Shown piece after piece: positions 1 to 62,398 of a stretch of DNA of 64,000 bases. Origin of the DNA: a virus; IMG/VR virus record IMGVR_UViG_3300008108_000033, positions 1 to 64,000 of that record; one strand, 5' to 3'. Under the pieces are notes generated by a model, which saw nothing but the letters and a program-made list of their open reading frames with translations, was not told where the DNA came from and searched no databases. The position numbers were made by a program, and so were the translations under genes. Every line of letters starts with the position of its first letter. Positions within the stretch are counted from its first letter, which is position 1.

Positions 1-214
1 AGTTTTTAACTACAAAGTCTTTATAAGCAGAAGCGTCTTTAGCTTGTCCTAGGTATTTGTTGAATCTAGGATCTTTTAGTGATGCCAATAAAACTCTTGA
101 CTTGCCCATGGATGAAGGGTCATTGGCGGCGTCTTCTAGATCTTTCGCGGCTCTCAAGACTTCGTCTTTAGAGACTTCTGACAAGAAGTAATTTTTAAAT
201 GAAAGTTTATCCAT
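1..214 (-). CDS. Partial small protein with capsid-targeting-like N-terminus
   Basis: The reading frame runs from an ATG at 214 off the left edge of the window, so the C-terminus is missing. It begins MDKLSFKNYFLSEVSKDE: an aromatic-rich stretch (F6, Y9, F10) followed by L11-S12-E13. That matches the arrangement of the T4 internal-protein targeting peptide, which ends in a prohead-protease site of the form (L/I)xE. The rest is polar and probably helical. A GAGAG stretch precedes the ATG, and TGATAAATA lies further upstream. The gene follows the 237-500 gene by 22 nt on the same strand. Capsid targeting is inferred; the mature function is unknown. Confidence 0.7.
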   Translation of the reverse strand, partial: MDKLSFKNYFLSEVSKDEVLRAAKDLEDAANDPSSMGKSRVLLASLKDPRFNKYLGQAKDASAYKDFVVKN

Positions 215-236
215 GTAATTCTCTCTGGAATATTTA

Positions 237-500
237 TCAGTTTTCTTCTACTTTTTTGAGCAATGTGTAGTAATTTGGTTTTTCTCTCAGGTGTGCAACC
301 GCTATTTTAAGAGCATCTGACTTGCGCTTTACAACATCGGTATCTTTATCTTTGTCATGTTCAGTTTCAACGTTAACGCCTTTTACCAGCTGATGTTTTT
401 TGAATTTAGAAATATCAATTCCTGTATCTTTGGCCATTTTCAATACATCTTGAAAATCCAATTTTGATTCTTTTAAAAGCCAGTCGGTGAAAGAAAGCAT
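237..500 (-). CDS. Small lysine-rich protein with capsid-targeting-like N-terminus
   Basis: The protein has 87 residues and starts MLSFTDWLLKES. F4, W7 and L8 are followed by L9-K10-E11, an (L/I)xE site like that cleaved in T4 internal head proteins. The remaining part is charged and Lys-rich, with a DKDKD stretch near residue 50, and looks DNA-compatible, as internal head proteins often are. There is no Shine-Dalgarno site; instead TATAAATA ends 4 nt before the ATG. It is divergent from the 521 gene and shares a palindromic promoter with it. Body function is not recognised. Confidence 0.75.
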   Translation of the reverse strand: MLSFTDWLLKESKLDFQDVLKMAKDTGIDISKFKKHQLVKGVNVETEHDKDKDTDVVKRKSDALKIAVAHLREKPNYYTLLKKVEEN

Positions 501-504
501 GAAT

Positions 505-516
505 TATTTATAAATA
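505..516. promoter_or_regulatory. Bidirectional late-promoter-like palindrome TATTTATAAATA
   Basis: The 12-bp palindrome contains TATAAATA on both strands (plus 509-516, minus 512-505). Each copy ends exactly 4 nt before the ATG of its gene (521 plus, 500 minus). TATAAATA is the T4 late-promoter consensus, which lies about 6 nt upstream of the transcription start. Transcripts would therefore begin at or next to the start codons. Confidence 0.6.
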
Positions 517-520
517 TGAT

Positions 521-919
521 ATGGAATTCTTGCAATGGTTTTTTGAAAACGATGAAATGCCCGTAGACCTTCCTGCGGAACTGCAAGAGTTCGTTTATGA
601 AATGGCTCCTTATGGCCATGCTATAAGGTTTAGTTTTCCTGCGAATAAGAAACGAGCGCCGGGACAATTTGTAATGACTGGCAAGGATATAGTGCAGTTA
701 TTACAGAAGTTTTATAATGATGCCAAGGCAGTTTTGAGGAATCCGCGCTTGGACGTTCAATACAGAGAACAGCTTTACGATTACATAAAGCATTATCAAG
801 AAATGTTTAACGATTTCTTTTCTGACAGGTTGAATTTGGAAAAGTCATTTGTGGTACACACCAGTCCGCCGGGAAGTAGATTTGCCGAGCAATCAAATAA
901 GATGTCTCCAATTACTTGA
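521..919 (+). CDS. Hypothetical protein with capsid-targeting-like start
   Basis: The protein has 132 residues. It begins MEFLQWFFENDEMP, with aromatic residues at 3, 6, 7 and 8 as in the other targeting-like N-termini of this region, and an L-Q-E site follows near residue 22. The body is soluble and amphipathic; no known domain was recognised. Translation starts 4 nt after a TATAAATA box with no Shine-Dalgarno site. The stop (TGA, 917-919) is followed directly by an open +1 frame encoding a membrane-like segment, so this may be only the N-terminal part of a longer protein. Confidence 0.7.
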   Translation: MEFLQWFFENDEMPVDLPAELQEFVYEMAPYGHAIRFSFPANKKRAPGQFVMTGKDIVQLLQKFYNDAKAVLRNPRLDVQYREQLYDYIKHYQEMFNDFFSDRLNLEKSFVVHTSPPGSRFAEQSNKMSPIT

Positions 920-1154
920 TTTCTTTTTTAAAGTTAAGATTCCGCAGCAAGTAGTATTATTGAATGCAGTTGAGAAAACTGATCGACGGCGCGTTACAAA
1001 CATAGATGACCAGCTAGTTGGGCTCATCATAGGAGTGTTATTGATAAATGGGGCATTGAATATTCCTCTGATTCCCAAAGAAAAGCTTTGGGAATTTTTG
1101 AAAAGTCTCACGTCGCTGAATGTGCTTGTTCTAATAATCATTTTTGCCTCCTAG
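920..1154 (+). CDS. Open frame with two hydrophobic segments, +1 to the preceding gene
   Basis: This frame is open from 834 to a TAG at 1152-1154. It encodes natural-looking protein with two hydrophobic stretches (LVGLIIGVLLINGALNIP and LNVLVLIIIF). It has no ATG; possible TTG starts are at 849, 882 and 960, none with a clear ribosome site. The preceding gene ends ACT-TGA at 917-919, and a +1 shift there would fuse the two frames into a protein of about 210 residues. The alternatives are a separate gene with a TTG start or a recent frameshift mutation. The opposite-strand frame here is Ser/Thr/Asn-rich and looks like a shadow. Confidence 0.4.
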
Positions 1155-1185
1155 CTACTTTAGGATGCAATTTTATCTGGTCAAG

Positions 1186-1473
1186 TTAAACTCTGCCAGC
1201 ATCTTCGATTCTTTTTATTATTTTAGCAGGCTTAGCAGGTTTAAGGGGAGGGAGGCCCGGTTTAAGTTTTTGTTCTGGCTCATCGTGTACAGGAACCGAA
1301 GAGAACATTTGATCAAGCATGCCTTTTTTTGCTAATTCAGCAGTTCCTAGTGCTCCCGCGCCAGCTAGTGATGCGCCAATTGTTAGAGGGAACTTTCTGA
1401 CAATCATTTTGGTTTTATCCAAGATATTTTCATTTTTTTGCTGAATGAAATCTTTAAACTTGTAGCTTTTCAT
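1186..1473 (-). CDS. Membrane protein with capsid-targeting-like N-terminus
   Basis: The protein has 95 residues and starts MKSYKFKDFIQQKNE, close in form to the T4 targeting peptide (M-K-x-Y...F-I). I chose the ATG at 1473 over the in-frame TTG at 1494. A Gly/Ala-rich hydrophobic segment lies at about residues 30-50, followed by a Pro/Lys-rich tail. The C-terminus IKRIEDAGRV resembles the end of the 3407-4108 product. TATATAAT ends 3 nt before the ATG with no Shine-Dalgarno site. Probably a minor virion or membrane-associated cargo protein; the function is inferred only from the leader. Confidence 0.7.
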   Translation of the reverse strand: MKSYKFKDFIQQKNENILDKTKMIVRKFPLTIGASLAGAGALGTAELAKKGMLDQMFSSVPVHDEPEQKLKPGLPPLKPAKPAKIIKRIEDAGRV

Positions 1474-1533
1474 AAAATTATATATTGTTTGCAAGTTTAT
1501 ATATTTCGTGCGTAATAGTAATGGAGGTGAATC

Positions 1534-2292
1534 ATGGCAAGATTTTTAATATTATTAGTTTGTTTAGTTGGCGTAACTGGGGCATTTGGTCAATTCAGGC
1601 CTTACATGCCTCCAAGGCCTCCGGTGCCGCCCGCGACGGTAATTCCTGTAACGCCTAATGGACAAAATGGCTTTAATGGAATGCAAGGGGGCATTAATGG
1701 TGGTATGATGGGAATAAGTGGTGGCATGACGGGCATGGGAGGAATTCAAGGTGGCAATTTTGGTATGTCTGGTGGGAATATGGGGTTTGGTGGATTTATG
1801 GGCCAGCTTGGCGGAATGGCAGGAGGAATGTCTGGGATGGGCATGGGTGGCTTTGGGATGGGCGGTATGGGTCTCGGTGGCGGCATGGGTGGTATTTCTG
1901 GTGGCATGTCTGGTGGCATGATGGGCGGATCAAATAATAATCCATACGGAGCTTACACTCCCGGCACTATAGTGAGGCCTACTGGGCAAAGCGGTCCTTA
2001 CAGCGTAATTCCTATTCAAGGTGGTTACATGTTGGGGATGGGCGGCGGCAGCATGTCTGGAATGGGGATGGGTGGCATGATTGGCATGGGCGGATTTGGA
2101 GGCGGTCAATTTGGATTTAGTGGAGGACAGTTAGGTGGTAACAATATTGGTAATGGTGGTTTTGGTGGCAACTTTGGCAATTTTGGCGCTATGGGTGGGG
2201 GACAGTTCGGCGGGGGATTAGGTGGACAGTTAGGATTCGGTGGTGGTTTTGGCGGAGGAAAGATGGGATTTAATGGTGGATCTGGCATTTGA
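1534..2292 (+). CDS. Secreted Gly/Met-rich repetitive protein
   Basis: The protein has 252 residues. It starts with a clear signal peptide (MARFLILLVCLVGVTGAFGQ), with no lipobox, then a short Pro-rich part (PPRPPVPP). About 200 residues of low-complexity Gly/Met repeats (GGM, GMGG, GGF) follow, with one less repetitive insert near residues 130-165. A strong Shine-Dalgarno site (GGAGGTG) precedes the ATG. Export to the periplasm or cell surface of the host is likely. No enzyme motif is visible. Such a protein is unusual in a phage; a structural, membrane-active or surface-coating role is possible but unproven. Confidence 0.8.
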   Translation: MARFLILLVCLVGVTGAFGQFRPYMPPRPPVPPATVIPVTPNGQNGFNGMQGGINGGMMGISGGMTGMGGIQGGNFGMSGGNMGFGGFMGQLGGMAGGMSGMGMGGFGMGGMGLGGGMGGISGGMSGGMMGGSNNNPYGAYTPGTIVRPTGQSGPYSVIPIQGGYMLGMGGGSMSGMGMGGMIGMGGFGGGQFGFSGGQLGGNNIGNGGFGGNFGNFGAMGGGQFGGGLGGQLGFGGGFGGGKMGFNGGSGI

Positions 2293-2354
2293 AAATTTAT
2301 TCTTGACTTTTTGAACCCCTGTCCTACTGTTGATAGCAAGAAGTGGGGGTCATT

Positions 2355-2633
2355 ATGTTTTCAGACACTTTGTCGTCGGCAATTTATATTGTGGGCATAA
2401 CTGTATGCTCACTAATGTTTTTATTTGGGATTTTATTCATAATTGGCGTATCAATGGATTTGTATGCCCGTTATGTTACAAATCCTAGGATAGAGCGACG
2501 TAGGAGAAGAAATATTGAGCGACTTGGAGGCAGATCTTTCGAGGAATCATTCGAGCGCCTGAAAAACCATCATGAAAATATTGACACGGATGACAATGCG
2601 CAGAAGTTAGGTCTCAAAGTTTACACTGATTGA
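2355..2633 (+). CDS. Small single-pass membrane protein
   Basis: The protein has 92 residues. The ATG at 2355 was chosen because GTGGGGG lies just upstream; a start at 2343 would lack a ribosome site. One long N-terminal hydrophobic segment (about residues 8-32) is followed by a basic stop-transfer run (RRRRR) and an acidic tail ending KLGLKVYTD. It is the first of three adjacent membrane proteins with similar C-terminal ends. Function unknown. Confidence 0.75.
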   Translation: MFSDTLSSAIYIVGITVCSLMFLFGILFIIGVSMDLYARYVTNPRIERRRRRNIERLGGRSFEESFERLKNHHENIDTDDNAQKLGLKVYTD

Positions 2634-2643
2634 GGGAATTAAC

Positions 2644-2958
2644 ATGATTTTTGCAATCGCGTCATGGATTTATTGGGCTATTATAATGCTGGCCACATGC
2701 ATTATGGCGGTAATCTTATTGGTCATAGCAGTTGCTGTTGTGGTCGGGGTTCCTGCAGGAATGTATTACCACTTTGTTGAAAAGCCTAAAACGGACGCAA
2801 TGTGGGCTAGGTTAGACAAAGCTATTGCAGAGAGAGACCCAGACGCGGATTATTCAGCAGAAGGTATGATTGCAAGAATAAAGGCTGCTGGTGAAGGGTC
2901 TGGTGTGACAGTTCAGGAAAGAGCTGAGGAACTTGGTTTAAAAGTGAGGTGGGAGTGA
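2644..2958 (+). CDS. Small single-pass membrane protein
   Basis: The protein has 104 residues. An N-terminal hydrophobic region (about residues 5-38) is followed by a charged cytoplasmic-type tail ending AEELGLKVRWE. The end resembles those of the 2355 and 3147 products (KLGLKVYTD and AGLKIFSN), which suggests duplication and divergence. It lies 10 nt after the previous gene and is probably co-transcribed with it. Envelope association is likely; no specific function can be assigned. Confidence 0.75.
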   Translation: MIFAIASWIYWAIIMLATCIMAVILLVIAVAVVVGVPAGMYYHFVEKPKTDAMWARLDKAIAERDPDADYSAEGMIARIKAAGEGSGVTVQERAEELGLKVRWE

Positions 2959-2960
2959 AC

Positions 2961-3140
2961 ATGGAAGCCATAGTTTATGTGGAATACGCACCGCTTAATA
3001 GCTATTTGGTAATTTTTACCCTCAAGGGAAAAAGAACTGAGGAGGTTGTGCGTGCGAATTCTGTCAGTCAGGCCAAAGAGATAATTATCAGTCGGTACAA
3101 AGGGTCCGTCGTTAAAATTATCAGTGTGAGCAAGGAGTAA
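2961..3140 (+). CDS. Small beta-rich hypothetical protein
   Basis: The protein has 59 residues starting MEAIVYVEYAP. GTGGGAG sits just upstream of the ATG at 2961, inside the end of the previous gene. Alternating hydrophobic residues suggest a small beta/alpha fold, with a helix near SVSQAKEII. It lies in the operon of small membrane proteins but has no membrane segment itself. Not recognised. Confidence 0.65.
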   Translation: MEAIVYVEYAPLNSYLVIFTLKGKRTEEVVRANSVSQAKEIIISRYKGSVVKIISVSKE

Positions 3141-3146
3141 TTTGCG

Positions 3147-3410
3147 ATGGAAGCTTTTGTTGTATTCGTATGGAATTGTGCTTTGTTCACTGGAGCGATT
3201 TTATTCATAGCTTTTGTAATATTTTGTGTTTCGGCAATGGTTTCAGGATTTATGATGAAGCCAGATGTCAAAATAGGACGGGTTGATTCTACAGCTAAAG
3301 CAGTTACGTCCGAAGAAGTGACGGTCACAAAAAGAAAGAGGGCGAAAGAATTCGCCCCCATTCGTAAACTTAATGAAAATCAGGCCGGTCTGAAAATATT
3401 CAGTAATTAG
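3147..3410 (+). CDS. Small single-pass membrane protein
   Basis: The protein has 87 residues. A hydrophobic N-terminal half (residues 4-35) is followed by a basic tail (TKRKRAKEF) ending AGLKIFSN, similar to the ends of the two other membrane proteins upstream. AAGGAG lies about 10 nt before the ATG. Its last 4 bp overlap the end of the convergent minus-strand gene. Function unknown. Confidence 0.7.
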   Translation: MEAFVVFVWNCALFTGAILFIAFVIFCVSAMVSGFMMKPDVKIGRVDSTAKAVTSEEVTVTKRKRAKEFAPIRKLNENQAGLKIFSN

Positions 3411-4108
3411 ATTCCGCCAGCGTCCTTGATTCGGCCCATCATTTTAGGTGCCATGCCGTATATCCCTTTATCCATAGCTCCAGCTGGCGACTCTAGTCCG
3501 GGCAATCTTCCTCCATATACAGGGGTGGATTTTGCCTGTGCTTTGCCATATTTCATCTGCGCTCCCAAATTGGCGCTAACAGATTGTAGAATTCTTGCTA
3601 TTTCCTTGTCTTCCTCTTGTGTCTGCACAAGCATGTCTTTCATTTCTTTGCCAACTTTATTCAGATGGCCCATTTTATTGTTTAGATATTTACTTACGGC
3701 CCTATTGATTGTAGAAATTGCCGACATGTCTTGTGGATCCATCATAGACTTTCCACCAATTTCAAGATTCTTCATAGCTTCTTCTAATTTTTGTCTTTCG
3801 ACCTTAACTTCTGCGACGGCTTCCTTTGTATTTTTATAGCCATCAACCATAGATTGCCTTACGGCTGTTGTTACATTTTTCATTTTAGATTCAAGATTTG
3901 CTACAATACTGGCTATTTTTGAACGTGTAGCTCGAATGTCGAAATCTCTTTTTACGTCTTTTCCTTTTTGTTTAAGTCCTTGCCATGCGTCACTAGCAAG
4001 TCCTCCTGCAGTTTGAAATCCAGCTTTTATCTGGTCCCAAATGCCTTCATCGAGTGTTTCGTTTTCAGAACGAGCTTCAACGTAGTCATTAAATGATATA
4101 CGATTCAT
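3407..4108 (-). CDS. Coiled-coil protein with capsid-targeting-like N-terminus
   Basis: The protein has 233 residues. It starts MNRISFNDYVEARSENETLDEG: F6 and Y9 in targeting-like positions and an L-D-E site at about residues 18-20. The middle is long, helical and charged, with heptad-like spacing suggesting coiled coils. A Gly/Pro-rich part and the tail MGRIKDAGGI follow; that tail resembles IKRIEDAGRV in the 1186-1473 product. A Shine-Dalgarno site (GGAG) is present. It could be an internal scaffold or core protein, or ejected cargo. No enzyme motif is seen. Confidence 0.75.
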   Translation of the reverse strand: MNRISFNDYVEARSENETLDEGIWDQIKAGFQTAGGLASDAWQGLKQKGKDVKRDFDIRATRSKIASIVANLESKMKNVTTAVRQSMVDGYKNTKEAVAEVKVERQKLEEAMKNLEIGGKSMMDPQDMSAISTINRAVSKYLNNKMGHLNKVGKEMKDMLVQTQEEDKEIARILQSVSANLGAQMKYGKAQAKSTPVYGGRLPGLESPAGAMDKGIYGMAPKMMGRIKDAGGI

Positions 4109-4204
4109 ATCTTTTCTCCGGAAAGTATAAAACTATATATGAAACATTTTTTTAAAATTTGAATTCTTATGCGTATTATATTTTTTTAAGCACTGGAGAA
4201 AGAA

Positions 4205-4612
4205 ATGGAAAAGTTTCACAAGCACTTGATTTTGAATGCGGTAGTTAAAAACCCAATTATGACTGAAGAAGATTGTAATTGTTGGCTAGCCGAGTTGGTA
4301 AACGTTATCGACATGGATATTTTGATACCCCCGCATTCCAAGTATTGTGATATTGAAGGCAACGAAGGTGTGACTGGAACGTGCGTGATTACCACAAGTC
4401 ATGTGAGCATTCATATTTGGTCTAATGTTGAGAAGCCATACATCCGAATGGATGTTTATAGCTGCAAGGATTTTGACGTGCAGAAGGTAATGGATTACGT
4501 CAACGATACTATGGGTGTAGAAGAGGAAGGTCACATAGTGATAGACAGGAACAAGATCGGACCTAAACTTGTTTGCTGTTCTGATCATAAATGTCAGGCA
4601 GCAGGGGTTTAA
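4205..4612 (+). CDS. speH: S-adenosylmethionine decarboxylase (SpeH-type)
   Basis: The protein has 135 residues, normal for prokaryotic class 1 AdoMet decarboxylases, which supply decarboxylated AdoMet for spermidine synthesis. The family core is clear: GVTGTCVITTSHVSIHIW then MDVYSC. S65 aligns with the serine converted to the pyruvoyl cofactor, H70 with the processing histidine and C87 with the catalytic cysteine. The residue before the cleavage serine is Thr where most members have Glu. A GGAG site precedes the ATG. In a phage this may raise polyamine for DNA condensation. The last 50 bp overlap the convergent gene 4563-5084. Confidence 0.9.
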   Translation: MEKFHKHLILNAVVKNPIMTEEDCNCWLAELVNVIDMDILIPPHSKYCDIEGNEGVTGTCVITTSHVSIHIWSNVEKPYIRMDVYSCKDFDVQKVMDYVNDTMGVEEEGHIVIDRNKIGPKLVCCSDHKCQAAGV

Positions 4613-5084
4613 TTTTCTTTAAAATTTCCCTAACTTTTGCGTTATCGATGTCTTGGTCTGCAAGAGAAGTTATGTAAAAATATATTGTCGAAACGGCCTT
4701 TAGAGCGCCAAGTATTATTGCTTGTTTGCTGGCTGGCATAGATGATATTACTGGCATTATTGTTGGGAATAGCATTAGAGGATTTGCCAAAGTTAGTTTG
4801 CTGCTTTTTGCTACAGATTTGGCAAGTTTAGCCCAATATTTAGATTTTTTAGGATGTCTGAGTACATCTTTCAGATCGTAAGCAACTTCGATATTAGATT
4901 TTAAAGTTGGTTTAACCATTAAAATCATTTTGCTCGCGCCGATAAGGAAATCTGCTAATTTAACAATTTTCTTGTAATCGGCAACGTCTGATACGGCATC
5001 AAGCGGGGAAGGCCCTTCCAAATCTTGACCTATATGATACGCATAATCAGCGTATGATTCTATAAAATGCTTAAACCCTTGCAT
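4563..5084 (-). CDS. Membrane-associated protein with capsid-targeting-like N-terminus
   Basis: The protein has 173 residues starting MQGFKHFIESYADY, where F4..F7-I8-E9 matches the targeting-like pattern. Helical segments follow, including hydrophobic ones near residues 100-140 (LMLFPTIMPVI and AIILGALKAV). No enzyme motif was recognised. There is no Shine-Dalgarno site; TATATATT ends 2 nt before the ATG, the same arrangement as at 56190. The gene overlaps the 3' end of speH by 50 bp on the other strand. Confidence 0.7.
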   Translation of the reverse strand: MQGFKHFIESYADYAYHIGQDLEGPSPLDAVSDVADYKKIVKLADFLIGASKMILMVKPTLKSNIEVAYDLKDVLRHPKKSKYWAKLAKSVAKSSKLTLANPLMLFPTIMPVISSMPASKQAIILGALKAVSTIYFYITSLADQDIDNAKVREILKKIKPLLPDIYDQNSKQV

Positions 5085-5086
5085 GA

Positions 5087-5094
5087 AATATATA
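5087..5094 (-). promoter_or_regulatory. TATATATT box 2 nt before ATG
   Basis: In minus-strand sense the sequence reads CTATATATTTCATGCAA, almost identical to the start region at 56179-56195 (ACATATATATTTCATGCAA). No Shine-Dalgarno site is present. A leaderless start is inferred. Confidence 0.4.
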
Positions 5095-5099
5095 GAAAT

Positions 5100-5381
5100 C
5101 TATTCCCAGAATTCTTGGCCGTCTTTCCAGTAGTGTAAAACTAATCTTCCGCTAATTGAGGGGTATTGTTTTTCTATTTTTATTTTGCCATCATGAATTT
5201 CTTGGTGGCATTTTCGGCAAACTACAACTGTGTTTAAGTCTGTGTATGTGCCGCCGTTCTCACCTTCCAATATACGATGAACATCTAGGAATTCATAGAC
5301 ATTGCAGGGGCAAAACTTACATTTACCTGCCAGATGCTTTTTGCATTTCTTATTGATTAATTTTTTAATTCTTTTCGGCAT
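5100..5381 (-). CDS. HNH endonuclease
   Basis: The protein has 93 residues with a compact HNH fold: a first Cys pair (C-K-F-C), then FLDVHRILEG, then a second pair in VVVCRKCHQEIHDG. The histidines of DVHRI and of HQEIH are the likely metal and catalytic ligands. It could be a free-standing homing-type nuclease, or take part in DNA packaging as some phage HNH proteins do. Its start overlaps the end of the upstream minus gene by 25 bp. No intron or split gene is visible next to it. Confidence 0.85.
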   Translation of the reverse strand: MPKRIKKLINKKCKKHLAGKCKFCPCNVYEFLDVHRILEGENGGTYTDLNTVVVCRKCHQEIHDGKIKIEKQYPSISGRLVLHYWKDGQEFWE

Positions 5382-6052
5382 ATGTTAAAGTTGCTAGCAA
5401 ATTCTTCTACATTATTATAGAAGTGAAAAAAGCTTTCATATGGATAAAACTTGAAAAAAATCTCAGGTGCTGATAGTTTTGTAGTTTCAACTATTCCTAT
5501 TTTTTTTCTTGTTTTGTATTTTTCTGCAACCGATGATAGCAAACTATAATCGAATCCCAAATAACCTATGGCATTCTGCAGTATGCCTATTTTTTCGGTA
5601 ATTGTGTGTTTTGCTTTATCTACGAGAGAGTTTTTAATAGATTTTTTGAAAGATGCTTGATTGTATAGTAAAAAATCGTTTTCTATTGCGCATTTTTCAA
5701 GTGAATTTATGTGGTTATCTCCGTAGTATTCGTCAACGTAAATATACTTTTTGTCCTTAAATTTATCTGGTGCCTCAAAAGTCTGCAAAGAAAGCTTGCA
5801 CTTTGTATATGGCATGCTATATTTTTTGATATGTGCCATTAAGGAATTTTTGTTTACAAGGTTTTCTGTTATGTCGGACTTTTCTATAATTTCTATGTTT
5901 TGAAAAAGCGGAATGTTGAGTTTCAAGTTCACTAGGTCTGCGGTGATAGATGGATCGCAATAAAGCTTCAACTTGTCAAATTCTTGCTTTGAGCAATAGG
6001 CTTGCATGAGAATGAAAAAATTCATATTTTTGCATGTTAGGGTGCGAATCAT
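5357..6052 (-). CDS. Hypothetical protein
   Basis: The protein has 231 residues and no signal peptide. A second possible start (MNFFILMQAY) lies at residue 10; the first ATG is preferred because AAAAGG lies close upstream. Alternating hydrophobic and charged segments suggest an alpha/beta soluble protein. The style resembles short glycosyltransferase-like or nucleotide-sugar proteins, but no diagnostic motif is visible. It is followed by the HNH gene with a 25-bp overlap, which suggests translational coupling. Confidence 0.65.
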   Translation of the reverse strand: MIRTLTCKNMNFFILMQAYCSKQEFDKLKLYCDPSITADLVNLKLNIPLFQNIEIIEKSDITENLVNKNSLMAHIKKYSMPYTKCKLSLQTFEAPDKFKDKKYIYVDEYYGDNHINSLEKCAIENDFLLYNQASFKKSIKNSLVDKAKHTITEKIGILQNAIGYLGFDYSLLSSVAEKYKTRKKIGIVETTKLSAPEIFFKFYPYESFFHFYNNVEEFASNFNICRKELKN

Positions 6053-6076
6053 AAAAGCCTTTTTGAAAGTTAATAA

Positions 6077-6084
6077 TATATATT
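6077..6084 (+). promoter_or_regulatory. TATATATT box 3 nt before ATG
   Basis: TATATATT is followed by GAT and the ATG of the metallopeptidase gene, with no Shine-Dalgarno site. The reverse complement faces the divergent gene at 6052 from within the same 35-nt gap. Confidence 0.4.
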
Positions 6085-6087
6085 GAT

Positions 6088-6780
6088 ATGTATATCGAGA
6101 AATTGAAATTCGGCAAATGGTTAGCCGAGTTTAACTTGGGAACACTTGAAACTGAGCTTGTAGATAGCAAGCCGATTGAGTCCTTATATGCTAAAGCTAA
6201 AAATGCAGTGGATTTGGTCAGAAAATACGATCAAGCAGAGGGTGAGCATAATTGGTTGAAAAAGCGAGTTGGGTGGCAAGGGCCAAGAAATGATTTTGGT
6301 TACTTGTTAAACATAAGCACAATAGCACCTCTGGCTGGCACAATATACGGACTTTTTAATAGCAAAGAAAATCAAAGAGTACTCGACAGAGATGTTCGCA
6401 AGTATCCTGTAACATTCAAATCTAATAGGCCTTTGACTGGAGAAGAGAAGCATCAGGAAGATGTTTTAAAAAACATAGCATTTAATGTTATGAAAAAGCA
6501 ATATCCAGATATAGACCCTAATAAAATACATGATAGTGCAGTTATCCACGTAAATGTTCCTCATATAATCAACACTATGAAACAGCGCGGACTAACAGGA
6601 GAGGAACTTGAACGGGCTATAATAAAAGAAATAGCAAGCACTATAGTTCATGAATCTACACATCAACTTGAAAGAACATGGATGGGTACAACCGACGAGA
6701 GTGGTCCGAGAGAAGCTGAAAAGCGCTTCTTGAATTGGCTAGAAAGAAACCCTGCTTTAATCATGGCGGCGGCGAAATGA
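6088..6780 (+). CDS. HExxH zinc metallopeptidase with capsid-targeting-like N-terminus
   Basis: The protein has 230 residues. The start contains F8-G-K-W11-L12-A13-E14, a targeting-like motif with an (L/I)xE site. A hydrophobic stretch (residues 73-90) follows. Near the C-terminus is a zinc-peptidase motif H188-E-S-T-H192, with E209 or E211 in REAEKRF as a plausible third ligand. The family is not identified. The leader suggests packaging in the head and delivery with DNA. The frame ends in ATGA, shared with the next start, so the two are translationally coupled. Peptidase activity is inferred from the motif only. Confidence 0.75.
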   Translation: MYIEKLKFGKWLAEFNLGTLETELVDSKPIESLYAKAKNAVDLVRKYDQAEGEHNWLKKRVGWQGPRNDFGYLLNISTIAPLAGTIYGLFNSKENQRVLDRDVRKYPVTFKSNRPLTGEEKHQEDVLKNIAFNVMKKQYPDIDPNKIHDSAVIHVNVPHIINTMKQRGLTGEELERAIIKEIASTIVHESTHQLERTWMGTTDESGPREAEKRFLNWLERNPALIMAAAK

Positions 6781-7768: not shown

Positions 7769-8032
7769 ATGGATAAGCCTTACGTCGAGACTGGCAATGG
7801 TAATGTTGTAGTAAGGGAGTTTAGCCCGGATGTGCCCTTTGAAGACTTAAAGTGGCACAGAGACTACGAAGATAGGAAAGTTCGTGTTTTAGAGCCGAAT
7901 GATTGGCAATATCAAGAAGACAACAAACTCCCTGTGCCTCTGGTCGGGGAGTTATTCATTCCCAGAGGTCTTTGGCATAGAGTTATAAAAGGAACTACCA
8001 AATTAAAAGTTGAGATTACAAAAATTATTTAA
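7769..8032 (+). CDS. Small cupin-like protein
   Basis: The protein has 87 residues; the ATG at 7769 follows the previous stop by one base, which suggests coupled translation. KWHRDYEDRKVRVLE and the later LFIPRGLWHRVIKGTTKLKVEI have the spacing of a one-domain cupin with His/Asp/His metal ligands. The substrate is unknown. It lies directly before the nucleotide-sugar cluster on the other strand, and its last 30 bp overlap the end of the epimerase gene. Confidence 0.6.
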   Translation: MDKPYVETGNGNVVVREFSPDVPFEDLKWHRDYEDRKVRVLEPNDWQYQEDNKLPVPLVGELFIPRGLWHRVIKGTTKLKVEITKII

Positions 8033-9082
8033 ATATTCAACTATTTTATCGGCTGCCTTGCCATCTCCATAAGGGTTTTTGTCTAGTGGAAGTTTCATAG
8101 AGCTATAAAGTTTGCTATCATTCCAAAGTTTATTAAATGTAGAACAAATAAGAGTTACGTCTGTACCAACTAATTTCCCTGCGCCCAAAGTTATAACTTC
8201 ATTTCTCTCAGTGGTATTTCTAAGAACCAAAACTGGCTTTTGAAGCGTTACACATTCTTCTTGTATTCCTCCCGAATCAGTAATTACCAGCCAAGACTGA
8301 TTTATTTTCTCAAGCATTTCACCGTAGTCAAGCGGCTCGCACAATGTTATGTTTTTAGATACTATTTCCTGATTTATTGTTTTTTTAAGCTCTGGATTAG
8401 GATGCACTGGAAATATAATCTCGATTTCGGCGTGACTCTCGCCTATCATGTTCAAAGACTTGCAAATATTTTTAATTCCTTCTCCCCAATTTTCTCTCCT
8501 ATGTGCTGTAACGATAACCGTTCTCTTTTTATGTTGCGTCAAGTTAGAAAACTTGGATTTTGCATACAAAGTTGAGTCAACTATAGTGTTGCCAGTAACC
8601 AAGATTTTGTTTGCTGGTATTCCTTCCTTGATGAGGTTATTTTTGGCTACTTCAGTTGGAGCAAAATTCATGCATGTCAATCTTGCAATTAATTCTCTGT
8701 TTTTTTCTTCCGGAAACGGTTCTTCTTGGTAAGTTCTCAGTCCAGATTCTACATGGAAGACATTCTTTTTGTTGTAGTACGCAAACAGTGCGGCACAAAG
8801 AGCGGTAGTTGTATCTCCATGCACTATTATGTTTTTAGAGGATTTGAAAATAGCCGACTCGTCAAATTTTGCCAAGATTGAACTTGTTAATTCGGACAGG
8901 CTGTTAGATTTTCTATCTAATCTCAAAAATTCGTCTGGTGTAATATCAAAAAAGCGGTATGTATCACTATTGTGTTGGCCGGAATGTATCCAACAAGGTT
9001 TCAGATCCTTATTCTTAAGTTCAAAATACACCGGAGCCAGTTTGATAATTTCCGGTCTGGTCCCGGCAACTATTGTGAACAT
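8003..9082 (-). CDS. wecB: UDP-N-acetylglucosamine 2-epimerase
   Basis: The protein has 359 residues, typical of the non-hydrolysing WecB/MnaA type. Recognisable motifs in order are GTRPEIIKLAPV at the N-terminus, HSGQHNSDTY, VHGDTTTALCAA, HVESGLRT, FPEEKNRELIARL, the sugar-nucleotide region ITDSGGIQEEC, and LRNTTERNE. It should convert UDP-GlcNAc to UDP-ManNAc, a precursor of ManNAc-containing surface polymers and of nonulosonic acids. It follows a methyltransferase gene with a 13-bp overlap and a GT32 gene, so it belongs to a three-gene sugar operon. The 3' end overlaps the convergent cupin-like gene. Confidence 0.93.
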   Translation of the reverse strand: MFTIVAGTRPEIIKLAPVYFELKNKDLKPCWIHSGQHNSDTYRFFDITPDEFLRLDRKSNSLSELTSSILAKFDESAIFKSSKNIIVHGDTTTALCAALFAYYNKKNVFHVESGLRTYQEEPFPEEKNRELIARLTCMNFAPTEVAKNNLIKEGIPANKILVTGNTIVDSTLYAKSKFSNLTQHKKRTVIVTAHRRENWGEGIKNICKSLNMIGESHAEIEIIFPVHPNPELKKTINQEIVSKNITLCEPLDYGEMLEKINQSWLVITDSGGIQEECVTLQKPVLVLRNTTERNEVITLGAGKLVGTDVTLICSTFNKLWNDSKLYSSMKLPLDKNPYGDGKAADKIVEYLNNFCNLNF

Positions 9083-9678
9083 TTTCTGATTACCAAATAT
9101 CCAACATAAAACTCAGTTGGCAGATTTATTACGCGGTCGGGCAATCTCGAATTCCTAGGATTTAGCCTAGTAAGGCAATGTTTGATTTTTTGCCCCAAAT
9201 ACTTCTCTATTTCTGTAAGTTGTAGTCCGGGGTAATCGAAAGTTGCTATAAATACACCATTTTCAGTCAGTTGCTCCAGATGATTTTCAAGAACCTCGAT
9301 ATGGTTATGCCTGACCTCTTCTAAAGTTGAAATATTTAAAACAATATCAAAATGATTCTTCATAGAATCTCTTGGCGGTGTTGTAATATCCCATACTGAG
9401 CAATTATAAAGTGTTGATGGGGTAATATCAGAGTGATATACATTTTTGTATTCTAGGTCTAGGCATGTTTTGAATATTACATGCATATCTCTAAATCCCC
9501 AAGAACAATTATGTATTTTTGGGTTTTTGATACCAGAATTTTTGATTTCATCCAAAACAAAAGGATATTCGTATATGCGGGACCAGCATATTTCATGCTG
9601 AAATAGCATATTTGTTGGATCTTCATTCGAAAAGAACGCGAATTTTTCTATTTTAAAATTTTCTTTTAACTTCTTCAT
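9070..9678 (-). CDS. SAM-dependent methyltransferase-like protein
   Basis: The protein has 202 residues. The core resembles class I methyltransferases: KNVYHSDITPS with an acidic residue at the end of a strand, then FDIVLNISTLEEVRHNHIE (motif IV region), then LTENGVFIATFDYPG. The usual glycine-rich motif I is weak (SWGFRDMHVI). Its position between the GT32 and epimerase genes suggests sugar or glycan methylation. It overlaps the GT32 gene by 26 bp and the epimerase by 13 bp. Confidence 0.7.
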   Translation of the reverse strand: MKKLKENFKIEKFAFFSNEDPTNMLFQHEICWSRIYEYPFVLDEIKNSGIKNPKIHNCSWGFRDMHVIFKTCLDLEYKNVYHSDITPSTLYNCSVWDITTPPRDSMKNHFDIVLNISTLEEVRHNHIEVLENHLEQLTENGVFIATFDYPGLQLTEIEKYLGQKIKHCLTRLNPRNSRLPDRVINLPTEFYVGYLVIRKCSQ

Positions 9679-10306: not shown

Positions 10307-10312
10307 TATTTG

Positions 10313-10336
10313 GCCTCTTGTACAATTATAAGAGGC
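10313..10336 (-). promoter_or_regulatory. Inverted repeat with TATAAT in loop and SD in arm
   Basis: The arms GCCTCTT and AAGAGGC are separated by 10 nt containing TATAAT in minus sense. The AAGAGG arm is the ribosome site of the GT32 gene. If transcription starts after TATAAT, only the right arm enters the mRNA; from an upstream promoter the hairpin would hide the ribosome site. Confidence 0.4.
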
Positions 10337-10343
10337 TTAAAGT

Positions 10344-10934: not shown

Positions 10935-10961
10935 AATATACAAAATTATATATCACAAGGT

Positions 10962-11606: not shown

Positions 11607-11612
11607 GATTTT

Positions 11613-11632: not shown

Positions 11633-11642
11633 TTAACATTTA

Positions 11643-13487: not shown

Positions 13488-13919
13488 ATGAGTAAAAAAC
13501 CAGTTATACCTGTTCCGGAGATGAACGTAGCTGTTCCTGCGCCCGGGCATTTGACAAGCATCACCGACCAAGACCTTCAGTCAATATACTCTGAAATTTT
13601 GGACGATTTAAGGAGTGATAGGCGGGAAATAGATATTCTACTGAATAATTTCGTTGAAATGGTAATGAACGAGGGCGATGGAAGCAGTTCTTCCAAGGAA
13701 GCAGTAGTTAATTTAGTAAAGATTAAAAACGATGTGGCCGACAAGAAAGCCAAAATAGCGGATTTGATGACCAGCTTGGTTATAAAAGAAAAAAATATCA
13801 ACAAATTGACAGCTAATCAGACTAATCACATACATATTACTGACAAGAGAGCAATTCTTGAGTCCCTTAAAAAAGCAAAAAAGGTGGAAAATGACAAGCA
13901 ATTGGGCGACAATAAATGA
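13488..13919 (+). CDS. Helical hypothetical protein, first gene of the structural operon
   Basis: The protein has 143 residues. A Pro-rich start (VIPVPEMNVAVPAPG) is followed by long charged helices with coiled-coil character. No signal or membrane segment is present. The 3' end overlaps the next gene by 29 bp, so the two are probably translated together. The position at the head of the tail operon suggests an assembly factor or minor structural protein; not recognised. Confidence 0.65.
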   Translation: MSKKPVIPVPEMNVAVPAPGHLTSITDQDLQSIYSEILDDLRSDRREIDILLNNFVEMVMNEGDGSSSSKEAVVNLVKIKNDVADKKAKIADLMTSLVIKEKNINKLTANQTNHIHITDKRAILESLKKAKKVENDKQLGDNK

Positions 13920-15231
13920 TTGGCTAGTTAAGGAAGATAATGGTGGCGTTGATGTATTGGCGTCCGCACTAGATGGATCAGCTGGAGGCGGTTCAGGCAT
14001 GCCTCCTCAAGATGCTCAGAATCCGGGTCGCGACGGCGCTGGCGCTCCTAGTCCGCCCCTAGAGAAAAACAATCTTGGCAATCCTATGGAAAAGCCAGTG
14101 GAACCGGGTGGAACCGGACCACAAATGGCAGAACCTATTGCGCCTGATATGCCAGAAAAAGAAGAAGTTAAAGACGCAAATTTTGAAATGTGGAAGTCGA
14201 AGTTCTTCAAAGACAGCGTTAAAGGCGACGTTAATCAACTTCTAGAATCATGCATGAGTATCAGAAGCAAGGATTTAGATACCTATCCCCGAAAATTTAT
14301 TGAGGACAATATTCAGATACTTTTCTTGCGCCAAAACGCAAATATAGACAAGGCTTCACAGGCAATACGCAAGTTTATTAGAGAAAACTTAGATCACAAC
14401 AATCCGGCAAGCAGCTTAATACAGGGAACTGTAAGTACAATTCAGCCCATGCCCGAATTGTGCAATATTTTTATCAAGATGATTGGGCTGTATAGCAATA
14501 AATCGGATATGCACAGAAAATACGTTGCTTCATTATTGGGAGCAGTACAAGTTGGCTCTGGTGGTTCTAACGAAGATTTGATTTTTAACCAAAGAGAATA
14601 CAGCATAAGAATTTCTACAAGAATGAATTCCAAGTTTGGCATGCTTGACTTGGGTAAATGGTACATGGACGCGAATGATCCAGAAAAATACTTGTCTGAG
14701 TCTGAAATGGACATGATGGAGAATGGCAGCCCAGAAGAAAAGTCTGTTTTACGCAAAAGAGTTATCCTAGAAAGTATCGCCGATAACTTTAGAATGCGTT
14801 CTTTCTTTATGAACGTAGTCGAACTAAACGGAACTAATTATTTCATTGGCGCTGATTTTGCAAATGCATTGAGAGATGGTTATACAGAGGGAAAACTAGT
14901 AGTTAAAAATTTGGTTAATGATTTTTCCGAAAGCTTTTTTGACAGCGAAGGAAATATGGTAACTCTGCCCGACATAAAGATTATGTATAACACGAATACT
15001 GGCAAAATTAACAACGAGGGAGAGCCAATAATGATCGAAAACGAGTTTATTACTCGTAGGGATGGCATGTTGTTCCTGACTGCTAGTTTAGAAGTATTAA
15101 AAGAGGCCGCAACATCATTTCAGGGTCTTATTGTAAAGGAAATACCTTTTGTGGGCAATCCGACCGATATAAACACTTTGATTCATTGTGTTCCTTCGGC
15201 CCCAGAGATTCTTCTAAGAAATTGTGCATAA
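13891..15231 (+). CDS. Putative structural protein with capsid-targeting-like start
   Basis: The protein has 446 residues. The ATG at 13891 was chosen because AAGGTGG lies just before it; the frame is open further upstream. It starts MTSNWATINDWLVKEDNGG, similar to the targeting-like N-termini, then a Gly/Pro-rich linker to about residue 95. A folded alpha/beta part follows (from FEMWKSKFFKD). It lies upstream of the tape measure, where neck, tail-completion or tail-tube-associated proteins are often found. No family was identified. Confidence 0.65.
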   Translation: MTSNWATINDWLVKEDNGGVDVLASALDGSAGGGSGMPPQDAQNPGRDGAGAPSPPLEKNNLGNPMEKPVEPGGTGPQMAEPIAPDMPEKEEVKDANFEMWKSKFFKDSVKGDVNQLLESCMSIRSKDLDTYPRKFIEDNIQILFLRQNANIDKASQAIRKFIRENLDHNNPASSLIQGTVSTIQPMPELCNIFIKMIGLYSNKSDMHRKYVASLLGAVQVGSGGSNEDLIFNQREYSIRISTRMNSKFGMLDLGKWYMDANDPEKYLSESEMDMMENGSPEEKSVLRKRVILESIADNFRMRSFFMNVVELNGTNYFIGADFANALRDGYTEGKLVVKNLVNDFSESFFDSEGNMVTLPDIKIMYNTNTGKINNEGEPIMIENEFITRRDGMLFLTASLEVLKEAATSFQGLIVKEIPFVGNPTDINTLIHCVPSAPEILLRNCA

Positions 15232-15245: not shown

Positions 15246-15770
15246 ATGCAGACTTTCCTTGAATACGCGATTCATCGAGTAAAAACTTTTGAGCCAAAGA
15301 GATTGCACAATCTTTATTTGGCTCTCAAGAAAGGCGGTTTGGCTGTAATCAATAGAATTCACCAGCAAAACGACCCACATCTTTGGGTGCAAGCTCATCC
15401 GCAGCCGGAAGAATATAGAGGAGTAAGAGTTTACCTACTGGGAAACATTTGCGCCTTTAGAGTTCAGAAGCTTGAAAATACCGAACCATATGGAAAAGCA
15501 TATCTTCTTAATTTGCAAGAAATGTACGATGACATTTTAGAAAACATGGGCGAAAAAGAAGATGATAAAGATCCTTGCAAGGCTGTGGAAATTCTTATCA
15601 AACAAATGAGCGATACAATAAGGAAATTTTATATAGATTCAATTCAGGACGAAGAGGAATTCCTATCTGCTCAGCTAGACGGTCCTTCGCGACAAGATAT
15701 TGGCGGCGCAGCGTTACTACCAGTTTCTGGTATAGATTACTCAAGTACTGTTTACAGCACCAAGAACTAA
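15246..15770 (+). CDS. Hypothetical virion-assembly protein
   Basis: The protein has 174 residues, starting MQTFLEYAIHRVKTFEP. The middle (PEEYRGVRVYLLGNICAFRVQKL) looks like a beta sheet, and a helical acidic C-terminal part follows. The gene sits 14 nt after the previous stop and starts without a Shine-Dalgarno site, 4 nt after GGTAAATA. It may be a tail-completion or assembly chaperone; the family was not recognised. Confidence 0.6.
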   Translation: MQTFLEYAIHRVKTFEPKRLHNLYLALKKGGLAVINRIHQQNDPHLWVQAHPQPEEYRGVRVYLLGNICAFRVQKLENTEPYGKAYLLNLQEMYDDILENMGEKEDDKDPCKAVEILIKQMSDTIRKFYIDSIQDEEEFLSAQLDGPSRQDIGGAALLPVSGIDYSSTVYSTKN

Positions 15771-29373: not shown

Positions 29374-29374
29374 T

Positions 29375-46135: not shown

Positions 46136-46431
46136 ACCGTAAAAAGTTTTTTTCTCCTAACTTTATGTCGGAGTTTAAGAAATGGATGCACGAAAATGAT
46201 GACTCAAAAGTCGTATTTTCCAAGGGTCAGCGCGTGCAAAGCAATTGCAAATTAAAACAGATTGTTGAAAAAATAGACTGTGTGGACACTGGCGACCACA
46301 CAGTCTTTGAAGTAAGTAAATACTTTTTGAAATACGGCGGTGTTGTAAAAGAATGCAACGGCGATCAAATAACGATTAAAAACAAAAAGGGAACTTTTGT
46401 TTTAAATCAATCTGATATTGTTGCAAGCTAA
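46132..46431 (+). CDS. Small protein with SH3/KOW-like C-terminus
   Basis: The protein has 99 residues if started at 46132 (ATGA overlap with the previous stop). Starting at the internal ATG 46165 would give MSEFKKWMHENDDSK, which looks like the targeting-type N-termini elsewhere in the window. The C-terminal YGGVVKECNGDQITIKNKKG then TFVLNQSDI resembles a small KOW/SH3 barrel. The last 4 bp overlap the convergent minus gene. An 11-bp inverted repeat lies inside at 46275-46306. Confidence 0.6.
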   Translation: MNRKKFFSPNFMSEFKKWMHENDDSKVVFSKGQRVQSNCKLKQIVEKIDCVDTGDHTVFEVSKYFLKYGGVVKECNGDQITIKNKKGTFVLNQSDIVAS

Positions 46432-56189: not shown

Positions 56190-56621
56190 ATGCAATTCAA
56201 AGAATGGCTTCAACAAAATGAGACAGCTGGAGATAGTTGGTTCGATCCAACAGCACAGCCAATACAATGGCTTTTGCGCGCTCAAATAAATGGTGCGCCA
56301 CTACCGGGGGTCATTGATTTGGCAGATTTTCCTCCGGGAAGTATTAAAAATCCATATTTAAATGATTTACTTGCTAAATTAGCACGGTACGCCAAAAAAA
56401 AGGGAAATTACAGCCCAGATAAAATTAATTACAGATATAAAAATGAATCGGCAATACAACAAAAGTTATTGAAATATTATTTAAAGTTTAAACCCAAAAC
56501 GCCAAGACCTCCTGAATTTAAAGACGGCCCTGACACGTATACCAATGCTGGCTGGGATGCCGTTGGAGAACCGGATACGGGTCAGAGGGCCACCTTTAAA
56601 GTCCTACCTCACTACACTTAA
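56190..56621 (+). CDS. Hypothetical protein with capsid-targeting-like N-terminus
   Basis: The protein has 143 residues. The ATG at 56190 was chosen over an earlier frame start (56169). It begins MQFKEWLQQNETAGDSW, a targeting-like motif (F3..W6-L7). Lys/Tyr-rich and Pro-rich parts follow (YYLKFKPKTPRPPEF). No enzyme motif is seen. The last 4 bp overlap the convergent acidic gene. Likely cargo of the head, by analogy only. Confidence 0.65.
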   Translation: MQFKEWLQQNETAGDSWFDPTAQPIQWLLRAQINGAPLPGVIDLADFPPGSIKNPYLNDLLAKLARYAKKKGNYSPDKINYRYKNESAIQQKLLKYYLKFKPKTPRPPEFKDGPDTYTNAGWDAVGEPDTGQRATFKVLPHYT

Positions 56622-60610: not shown

Positions 60611-62398
60611 ATGAAAAGCATTTGGAAAAAAAAATATAAATCACCAGCTGATTATTACAAAAAAAATTATGATCAAGAATTCTATTATTTTGATAAACTA
60701 CAACTACAAATAGATCCAGATGAAACTGTAGACGACATTAATCTTTATGATCCTGTCCAACAAGCCGATGAAATTGAAAAATGCGTAAAGAGCTTTCCCT
60801 ACTTCTGCCACAGATATGTTAAGATTTTACACCCAACCAAAGGCCTCATACCCTTTGTAATGTACAAATATCAGGCTAGAAGTATAGAATTTTACCAAAA
60901 ACACAGATTCAATATCATAAGCAAGTTCCGACAGGGCGGATTGACCACCGTGACGCTGCTTTATGGGCTCTGGAAATGCATGTTTGAATTAGACCAGCAA
61001 ATCATGGCATTGTCTAAAACTGACCGCGAAGCTGTAGGCATTGGCATGATGGTAGACAGGGCCGTCGAACACATGCCAACTTGGATGAAACCAAAAAAGG
61101 ATGGCAAGTGGAATGACCACTTAAAACAATTTCCCGATACAGGCGGATCTATTCAGTTCCATTCGCCTGAAGCTGCTCGCGGTAAATCAGTTACGTTTCT
61201 TATAATAGACGAAGCCGCGTTTATTCCCGACATGGAATCGCACTGGAAAGCTATGTGGCCGGTACTTAGTACTGGTGGAAGTTGCGTGCTAGTTTCCACT
61301 GTTAACGGATTAGGTAACTGGTACGAGGAAACATACACAAACGCCAAAGAAGGCAAAAACATGTTCCACGTAATCGACCTAGATTACTGGGAGCATCCAG
61401 ATTATTCACCAAAAAATAACCCGAATTGGGAAAAAGAACAGAGAAGTCAATTAGGAGAAAAAGGCTTCTTGCAGGAAGTATTGCGTAGCTTCTTAGGCTC
61501 TGGAGATACTTACATACCTTCTGATAAAATAACAGCAATCGAACAGAGTTTAAGAAACAAATATCCATACAAAAGATTATTCCCGCAGTTTTGCAACAAA
61601 GATGTTCCAGAAGAAAACGATAGTGAGTACGAAAAAGGTGCCTTATGGATATGGCAAGAGCCTAAGGATGGCGCGGATTATATTTTGGGAGTTGATTGCG
61701 CAGAAGGAATAGGCTCGCACGGCGATAATTCATGCATACAGCTAATAAATGCAAATACTCTGGAACAAGTTGCAGAATTCTATAGTCATAGCATCCAGCC
61801 ACACGACTTTTCTCATATTGTACACGAGCTAGCAAGCGCTTATAATTCGGCACTTGTGATAGTTGAAGATATGTCTAGCGGCGGCATAGTTTTGGATATG
61901 CTTTTCAGAGAATTGTCTTATGAAAACTTGTTTTATCCGCCTAAGTTTACCAAAAATGTAAAACCCGGCATAAAGATGTCAGTGAATGTAAGACCTATTG
62001 TGTTGCAAGGCTTTCAAAGCAGAATTCTCAATGGTGCCCTGCAAGTAAATAGCCGCAGACTACTGAATGAAATGAAAACATTTGAATACAACAGCTCAAC
62101 CAAAAAAGCCGAAGCAGCCAGAGGAAAACATGATGATGCCATCATAGCCATGGCGCTAGCTTTGTATGCAAGAGATCAAAGCATAAGAGACGTTCCATTA
62201 GGAATGACCGCTGGTGAACAAAATAATAAAACCCAAGCTAATATTTCTGACATTAGGGAAGAACTGAGAAAAGGGTTAAAAGAATCAATTTTTGATAAAG
62301 TTATGAAAAAAGAAAAATCCTTAGAAGATTTGGAAAATGAAAATTTACTTAGAATGTATAGAAAGCAAAACTCTCTTCTAAAAGACTTCGGATGGTAA
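60611..62398 (+). CDS. Terminase large subunit
   Basis: The protein has 595 residues. ATPase motifs are Walker A-type K105-F-R-Q-G-G-L-T-T113 (lacking the usual Lys directly before Thr, as in some phage terminases), Walker B FLIIDEAAFI (D200, E201) and coupling motif STVNG (229-233). Nuclease motifs are D362 in ILGVDCAEG, E419/D420 in LVIVEDMSSGG and D508/D509 in GKHDDAI. The motor pumps DNA into the head and cuts it. It starts 49 nt from the divergent ferritin-like gene. Small terminase subunit is not identified. Confidence 0.95.
   Translation: MKSIWKKKYKSPADYYKKNYDQEFYYFDKLQLQIDPDETVDDINLYDPVQQADEIEKCVKSFPYFCHRYVKILHPTKGLIPFVMYKYQARSIEFYQKHRFNIISKFRQGGLTTVTLLYGLWKCMFELDQQIMALSKTDREAVGIGMMVDRAVEHMPTWMKPKKDGKWNDHLKQFPDTGGSIQFHSPEAARGKSVTFLIIDEAAFIPDMESHWKAMWPVLSTGGSCVLVSTVNGLGNWYEETYTNAKEGKNMFHVIDLDYWEHPDYSPKNNPNWEKEQRSQLGEKGFLQEVLRSFLGSGDTYIPSDKITAIEQSLRNKYPYKRLFPQFCNKDVPEENDSEYEKGALWIWQEPKDGADYILGVDCAEGIGSHGDNSCIQLINANTLEQVAEFYSHSIQPHDFSHIVHELASAYNSALVIVEDMSSGGIVLDMLFRELSYENLFYPPKFTKNVKPGIKMSVNVRPIVLQGFQSRILNGALQVNSRRLLNEMKTFEYNSSTKKAEAARGKHDDAIIAMALALYARDQSIRDVPLGMTAGEQNNKTQANISDIREELRKGLKESIFDKVMKKEKSLEDLENENLLRMYRKQNSLLKDFGW

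Follow-up and report, generated by a model that had tools for sequence, protein, structure and literature searches.

A shared T4-like N-terminal leader on unrelated proteins of a T4-type virus record suggests a capsid-targeted cargo

The window analysed here comprises bases 1 to 64,000 of the 80,753-base virus record IMGVR_UViG_3300008108_000033 (labelled G000), a T4-type record in which many otherwise unrelated proteins begin with the same short leader, or tag. This shared N-terminus is interpreted, with a probability of roughly 0.85, as a T4-type capsid-targeting sequence by which late-expressed cargo would be loaded into the prohead, cleaved there and, in part, injected. By analogy with T4, the tag very probably loads unrelated proteins into the virus head, and their injection into the next host perhaps follows. 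Gene starts were taken from a home-made caller, and several of the relative records are fragments.

Results

Conservation of the leader at protein N-termini

The leader approximates M-x-[TSN]-F-[KR]-[EQD]-[WFY]-[LMFV]-x(1-4)-E and would thus be a short amphipathic peptide fused to independently folding proteins. The ten similar N-termini listed by the first-pass annotation were all found where it had placed them, in open reading frames with ATG starts, and their resemblance exceeds chance: the expression.{1,10}[FY]..[FYW][LIVMF].{0,3}E matched 9/93 genes of G000, compared with 0.68 after shuffling of residues 2-25 (maximum 3 in 300) and 0.38 in internal windows. It also matched 12/112 genes in G001, 28/223 in G002, 29/444 in G003, 26/870 in G004 and 43/1076 in W01, where 0.75 to 6.5 were expected. 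The comparison with internal windows shows the enrichment to be specific to protein N-termini, and it is present in GC-rich genomes too (53-56% GC). A DNA-pattern search of IMG/VR for M[KN][TS]Fx[EQ]WLxE returned 59 loci, the permuted pattern only 3. Taken as a single hydrophobic-aromatic pattern, the leader is short and degenerate, and in AT-rich phages it could arise at gene starts by chance or through composition; such an artefact is nevertheless contradicted by the shuffles, the internal windows, the permuted pattern, the enriched GC-rich genomes and the independent promoter association described below, and its probability is considered negligible.

A de novo motif was also sought by expectation maximisation in 2,963 N-termini drawn from six relatives, G000 and its near relative G001 being held out; the search converged on [TSNK]F[KR][EQD][WFL]L[EK][EL]. 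The resulting position-specific scoring matrix (PSSM) is circular where the six genomes used for training are concerned and independent for G000, G001, T4 and T5. At a score of at least 7 it recovered 13 N-termini in G000 (1.03 expected) and 22 in G001 (1.38 expected). The genes at 15246, 66589-66978 and 73107-73589 are additional members of the class that the first-pass annotation had missed. Among the 260 proteins of T4, scored with a matrix learned without T4, gp61.1 ranked 1st, IpII 2nd and IpIII 5th, the identities of the latter two being taken from annotation. T5, which has no S77 prohead protease, gave 4 N-termini at this threshold with 2.4 expected, near background.

Putative prohead-protease sites are over-represented behind the core. 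Relative to the aligned core, glutamate is enriched at +8 (6-fold), +5 and +6, and 48% of family representatives have an [LI]xE triplet no more than 11 residues from the core, compared with 26±3% after column shuffling and 7% internally. The excess over the column shuffles indicates that L and E co-vary at the protease's spacing, while the absolute position floats.

Head machinery of the record

G000 encodes a T4-type head module, which lies partly to the right of the window. Its first gene, encoding the terminase large subunit (60611..62398, + strand), is within the window, and the portal, protease, presumed scaffold and capsid genes follow at 64064-72038, beyond it. There, the portal gene (64064-66598) is succeeded by a tagged protein (66589-66978, MKKFSQYLQE), a 620-aa protein, the S77 (gp21-type) prohead protease (69088-69519; PF03420, E 5e-30), a presumed scaffold protein (69675-70580), so designated from its position between the protease and capsid genes and with no family match, and the gp23-type major capsid protein (MCP; phrog_138, E 1e-81). 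Another tagged protein outside the window is found at 73107-73589 (MKFKYWFLTE). The G000 capsid protein shares 74% identity with its counterpart in the 595-kb uncultured phage LR756511.1 and about 80% with those of IMG/VR contigs as long as 532 kb; among cultured phages the closest by this protein stand near 35%.

The residues of T4 gp21 His85, Ser140 and Asp168 are invariant across 8/8 aligned clade proteases, and an S77 protease was found in 12/12 records picked by MCP relationship, the record of the window counted. A cleavage-type site L-[IMVF]-N-E/[VTSAI] (a slash marks the putative cut here and the end of the leader below) is kept near residue 48 in 64/64 distinct clade capsid proteins, together with an upstream LLE/N, in a region that corresponds in the alignment to the cleavage site of T4 gp23. 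The presumed scaffold carries 16 [LIM]xE sites where 7.6 were expected. Judged by these sequences, G000 encodes the machinery that a capsid-targeting interpretation requires; the protease, the capsid site, the LxE-rich scaffold and the ranks of IpII and IpIII all speak for the T4-like reading already offered by the first-pass annotation.

The leader could instead direct proteins to a non-capsid site, such as a phage-made compartment or a membrane, its T4 likeness being convergent. Short amphipathic helices often serve to localise proteins, the leader is predicted to form a short helix, and its function is experimentally established in T4 only. Against this, the clade PSSM gives the leaders of T4 internal proteins some of the highest ranks within T4, LxE sites are over-represented, the S77 protease accompanies every record picked by MCP relationship, and membrane segments are not in excess among tagged proteins (4/243 versus 115/2741 others), so that localisation elsewhere is regarded as very improbable. 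For the same lack of enrichment, the earlier suggestion that the cargo includes membrane proteins is weak.

A late-promoter-like box abutting the start codon

The top enriched 6-mer upstream of tagged genes is TAAATA (72/243 versus 146/2741 other genes). In the form TA[ACT]ATA, ending 3-6 nt before the ATG, the box precedes 93/243 tagged genes (38%) versus 85/2741 others (3%; odds 19, p 6e-60) and, when only genes with an upstream gap are considered, 71/154 versus 65/1390. Its rate stays at about 3% below a PSSM score of 7 and rises to 31-46% above 9. A Shine-Dalgarno sequence was present in 3% of box-bearing tagged genes versus 53% of other genes, in a closely similar count. The sequence TATAAATA alone is mildly enriched in the window (11 versus 5.6), the signal depending on position and on the wider TA[ACT]ATA form. 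The box also precedes some fibre-like genes.

Within the window, box-bearing genes include the divergent tagged pair 237-500 and 521-919, served by one palindromic element (505-516) in which two TATAAATA boxes (505..512, - strand; 509..516, + strand) each end 4 nt before the respective ATG. TATATA boxes lie upstream of 1186-1473 (1479-1484, - strand), of 4563-5084 (5089-5094, - strand), of the metallopeptidase-like gene 6088-6780 (6077..6082, + strand, ending 5 nt before the ATG) and of 56190-56621 (56180-56185), and a TAAATA box (15236-15241) precedes 15246-15770. Genes for gp55-type sigma factors are present in G003, G004, G005 and W01 and were not seen in the shorter records, G000 included.

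T4 late promoters consist of an 8-bp TATA box placed roughly one turn of the helix ahead of the start (PMC2988020); the cyanophage late promoter takes the form NATAAATA in S-PM2 and Syn9 (PMC2984593). Since the clade box abuts the ATG, transcription would be expected to start at or next to the AUG; the box-bearing tagged genes are accordingly predicted to be expressed late, from mRNAs that are probably leaderless.

Unrelated bodies behind a modular tag

As the first-pass annotation had claimed, the parts downstream of the leader are unrelated: 242 tagged proteins from eight genomes fall into 196 body families, 164 of them singletons. Most Pfam domains begin at residue 14-28, directly after the tag (NUDIX 14, ART-PolyVal 16, CTP_transf 18, FMN_red 19, DUF3293 21, DUF5661 22, peptidase C39 27, AAA_33 28); thymidylate kinase begins at 44. 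The ART-PolyVal domain is that of G001 2539-3132 (E 2e-18), where it stands behind MNFKQWLNE. Other tagged bodies comprise a HAD-type phosphatase, a 2'-5' RNA ligase/Acb1-like protein, ankyrin repeats, proteins resembling S-adenosylmethionine (S-AdoMet) lyase in several phages, the Microcystis phage isolate Mel-JY01 among them (E 4e-10), and some low-complexity Pro/Gly/Ala-rich proteins. An orthologous PolyA_pol-type nucleotidyltransferase bears the tag in W01, G003 and G004 and has none in G000, G001, G002 and G006, which indicates that the tag is modular.

These cargo types would fit the T4 precedent, the ART fold recalling T4 Alt, and the predicted S-AdoMet lyase and Acb1-like proteins could act in counter-defence. 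In particular, it is plausible that the tagged DUF3293 and S-AdoMet-lyase-like enzymes represent an injected counter-restriction activity; such bodies were seen repeatedly behind the tag (G004 28798-29505 and 459469-459861, G003 100814-101638, L242, Mel-JY01 52405-53691).

The tag might also lead to the prohead core and yet mark mainly morphogenetic core proteins, like T4 gp67 and gp68, which would be degraded or retained rather than injected as effectors. The tagged proteins 13891-15231 and 66589-66978 are indeed encoded within structural regions and have conserved counterparts in relatives, the presumed scaffold is rich in LxE sites, and low-complexity tagged proteins exist. However, many bodies are ordinary enzymes that play no part in structure (NUDIX, thymidylate kinase, FMN reductase, C39 peptidase, ART) and the body families are mostly phage-specific, as the singletons indicate; a predominantly morphogenetic role is therefore held to be unlikely.

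Several further observations concern N-termini and bodies of this kind. In L241, L244, L261, W01 (415543) and the window's 3407-4108, the leader is followed by [LIV]DEG[IVF][WL] and then by a Gly/Ala-rich signal-peptide-like stretch. A second conserved N-terminus, MGATSVTG[VK]x(G/P)G, with differing C-terminal parts, occurs in many relatives (e.g. G002 144206, G004 356431, L080 9100). Tagged nucleotidyltransferases (CTP_transf_like) are encoded by L205 (838-1701) and the cyanophage S-SSM4 (132679-133848), the latter having relatives in 558 phage records, mostly cyanophages, annotated as cytidylyltransferase or nicotinate-nucleotide adenylyltransferase.

A metallopeptidase-like protein as putative cargo

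The metallopeptidase named in the first-pass annotation as part of the predicted cargo set corresponds to the 230-aa product of 6088..6780 (+ strand; leader KFGKWLAE). An HExxH protein, it keeps the leader core in 9/9 homologues, with a linker behind the core that varies by about 20 residues, and H188, E189, H192 and either E204 or E211 are invariant in ten aligned sequences. It thus has the HExxH motif plus third ligand of a zinc metallopeptidase, and its predicted activity is designated metallopeptidase-like. The AlphaFold2 model reached a middling predicted local distance difference test score (64), with a body from about residue 33, while the first 30 residues were modelled at low confidence and apart from the body, with the leader as a short detached helix. 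No match was obtained by Pfam, a PDB fold search or a viral fold search, nor by a scan of viral contigs with window-specific patterns.

Other tagged genes of the window

The first-pass annotation had assigned the family to 1-6780, where a cluster does exist; this span is too small, as tagged genes continue across the record. In family searches of the window's tagged proteins, DUF5661 alone scored above the cutoff. At the left end, a tagged protein truncated by the record end (5..214, - strand) has the leader MDKLSFKNYFLSE/V, ending in LSE (PSSM 7.1), with GATAAATA about 18 nt upstream and an SD-like (Shine-Dalgarno-like) GAGAG. The adjacent 87-aa DUF5661 protein (237..500, - strand; MLSFTDWLLKE/S, PSSM 10.8) matches PF18905 (E 7e-14) from residue 22 and has orthologues in G001, G002 and W01. 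Divergent from it, a 132-aa protein (521..919, + strand) starts with MEFLQWFFE/N (PSSM 10.0), its orthologue with MNFKLWLLE/N. In a 95-aa protein (1186..1473, - strand) the leader MKSYKFKDFIQQ (PSSM 10.4) is followed by a Gly/Ala-rich apolar segment.

The 233-aa protein of 3407..4108 (- strand; MNRISFNDYVEARSENETLDE/G, PSSM 10.4) is 68% identical to its G001 orthologue over the first 22 residues and 22% over the body, and its N-terminal 47 or so residues alone recur in L029. A 173-aa protein (4563..5084, - strand) carries MQGFKHFIE, with MHGFKEFLE and MISFSQFLKE in orthologues. Scores are modest for this protein (5.6) and for the metallopeptidase-like one (7.6), their orthologues attaining 10.5 and 11-12.

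Farther right, a conserved 446-aa protein (13891..15231, + strand) bears the leader-like NWATINDWLVKE/D (PSSM 8.9), with LNDWLINEE in G002 and IENWLINEQ in G006, and may serve in the core or as a structural protein instead of being cargo. Next to it lies a further candidate (15246..15770, + strand; MQTFLEYAIHRV, PSSM 7.7) with homologues starting MRTFLEFF and MLEFKEFI. The small protein at 46165..46431 (+ strand; MSEFKKWMHE/N, PSSM 11.5), which has no promoter box, had been listed with some doubt; its start is backed by homologues retaining the core (W01, NDFRKWM; G006, DGFDKWL). The record's best score, 15.8, belongs to a 143-aa protein (56190..56621, + strand; MQFKEWLQQNE).

Among neighbouring genes, an untagged S-adenosylmethionine decarboxylase-like protein (4205-4612; PF02675, E 3e-14) lies within the tagged cluster, and 1534-2292 encodes a signal-peptide-like N-terminus followed by 200 residues of Gly/Met-rich repeats with no family match. 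A UDP-GlcNAc 2-epimerase, a DXD glycosyltransferase, a ClpP-like protease and the PolyA_pol-type nucleotidyltransferase are grouped at 8003-12935. Convergent with 56190-56621, a 98-residue protein (56618-56914), which has an equivalent in G001, consists nearly entirely of Asp and Glu with some Trp.

Discussion

In the capsid-targeting interpretation, the tagged proteins would be made late in infection, largely from promoters of the T4 late type that adjoin the start codon, and the tag would dock them into the prohead core, presumably onto the gp22-like scaffold. The S77 protease would then remove the tag, often after (L/I/M)xE. The bodies would remain alongside the DNA in the head, and at least some of them may enter the host by injection, as preformed factors for takeover or counter-defence. 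The sequences themselves show the shared tag, its modularity, the unrelated bodies, the encoded machinery, the LxE enrichment and the association with the promoter box; the steps from docking through cleavage and packaging to injection are those that we infer.

Several observations weigh against this interpretation. The leader ending (L/I)xE, as originally described, holds for about half of the leaders, the strict [LI]xE within 11 residues being absent from the other half. T5 still has 2 N-termini scoring at least 10 although it has no S77 protease. Of the 16 leader-pattern contigs of at least 100 kb, S77 was detectable in 10; the other 6 may be incomplete, and at least G012 and G013 among them show partial T4-type capsid matches, the contigs of the permuted-pattern control being too few and too short for an S77 base rate. 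The cultured S77 phages T4, S-SSM4, Mel-JY01 and immuto each have only 1-3 leaders at PSSM scores of at least 9, and XacN1 has 7 in 220 kb; the large tagged class would therefore belong to this clade and not to all S77 phages, and an S77 protease does not imply such a class. Finally, a literature search found no virion proteomics or N-terminal mapping for these phages, and nothing usable came from a search for reports in which proteomics had directly detected tagged proteins of cyanophages.

A bolder proposal, to which about even odds are given, is that, in this uncultured and partly giant T4-type clade, promoter box, start codon and tag form a standard plug-in cassette behind which new domains are recruited again and again; each phage would thereby assemble a private injected arsenal of 10-70 prepackaged proteins, counter-defence enzymes included, expressed from leaderless late mRNAs. 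We know of almost no description of the injected payload accompanying the DNA of large phages beyond T4, P1 and phiKZ-like phages. Should the tag mark cargo, one could list from sequence what any phage of the present type carries, hundreds of candidate early-takeover and counter-defence factors in unannotated families would become available, and there would be an existing signal with which to load foreign proteins into large heads. The abutting box, for its part, leads one to expect a class of late genes with leaderless transcripts in phages related to T4.

Comparison with known systems

The mechanism class is already known from T4; as far as could be found, the scale, the cargo diversity and the promoter arrangement are apparently new. 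The capsid-targeting sequence of the T4 internal proteins (IpII, IpIII) was reportedly described by Mullaney and Black in 1996. As in IpII and IpIII, the leaders here have about 10 residues, an F/Y..F/W-L/I core and, in about half of them, an LxE-type end, and, as for the T4 internal proteins, an S77 protease is encoded in the same genome and the bodies are unrelated. Unlike in T4, where the same search finds 2-3 tagged proteins, 12-67 are predicted in each of seven relatives; the second core aromatic is mostly W, the bodies are enzymatic, and the box abuts the ATG, whereas TATAAATA boxes in T4 lie 13-34 nt from it. T4 Alt is a packaged ADP-ribosyltransferase (ART), and G001 2539-3132 likewise has an ART-type enzyme behind a short N-terminal leader, a putative propeptide, but belongs to a different sequence family; the Alt N-terminus was not picked up by the leader motif.

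In T4, a capsid-targeting sequence of 10-20 residues brings the internal proteins into the prohead; gp21 trims these proteins, which are then injected. Of them, IPI acts as an inhibitor of the restriction enzyme GmrSD, and on some hosts the phage needs IPIII (PMC3012670, PMC5694885, PMC9391042). The tag, the S77 protease, the LxE sites, the late-type promoter boxes and the kinds of enzyme described above agree with this system. In the giant phages phiKZ and SPN3US, the prohead protease cuts N-terminal propeptides of packaged proteins after xxE (PMC5694885), a type of cleavage predicted for many of the present leaders too; the SPN3US propeptides, by contrast, are mostly far longer (several over 100 residues), are cut after AxE and have no short common tag (PMC5694885). 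In P1, the N-terminal 30 residues of the counter-restriction cargo protein DarB bring a foreign protein into the capsid, but the Dar proteins are reported to have no consensus (PMC9024508), in contrast to the clade leaders. As for promoters, CATAAATA, GATAAATA, TATAAATA and AATAAATA, found upstream of tagged genes, resemble cyanophage late promoters, whereas, unlike the cyanophage element, the clade box lies 3-6 nt before the ATG, mostly in place of a Shine-Dalgarno sequence.

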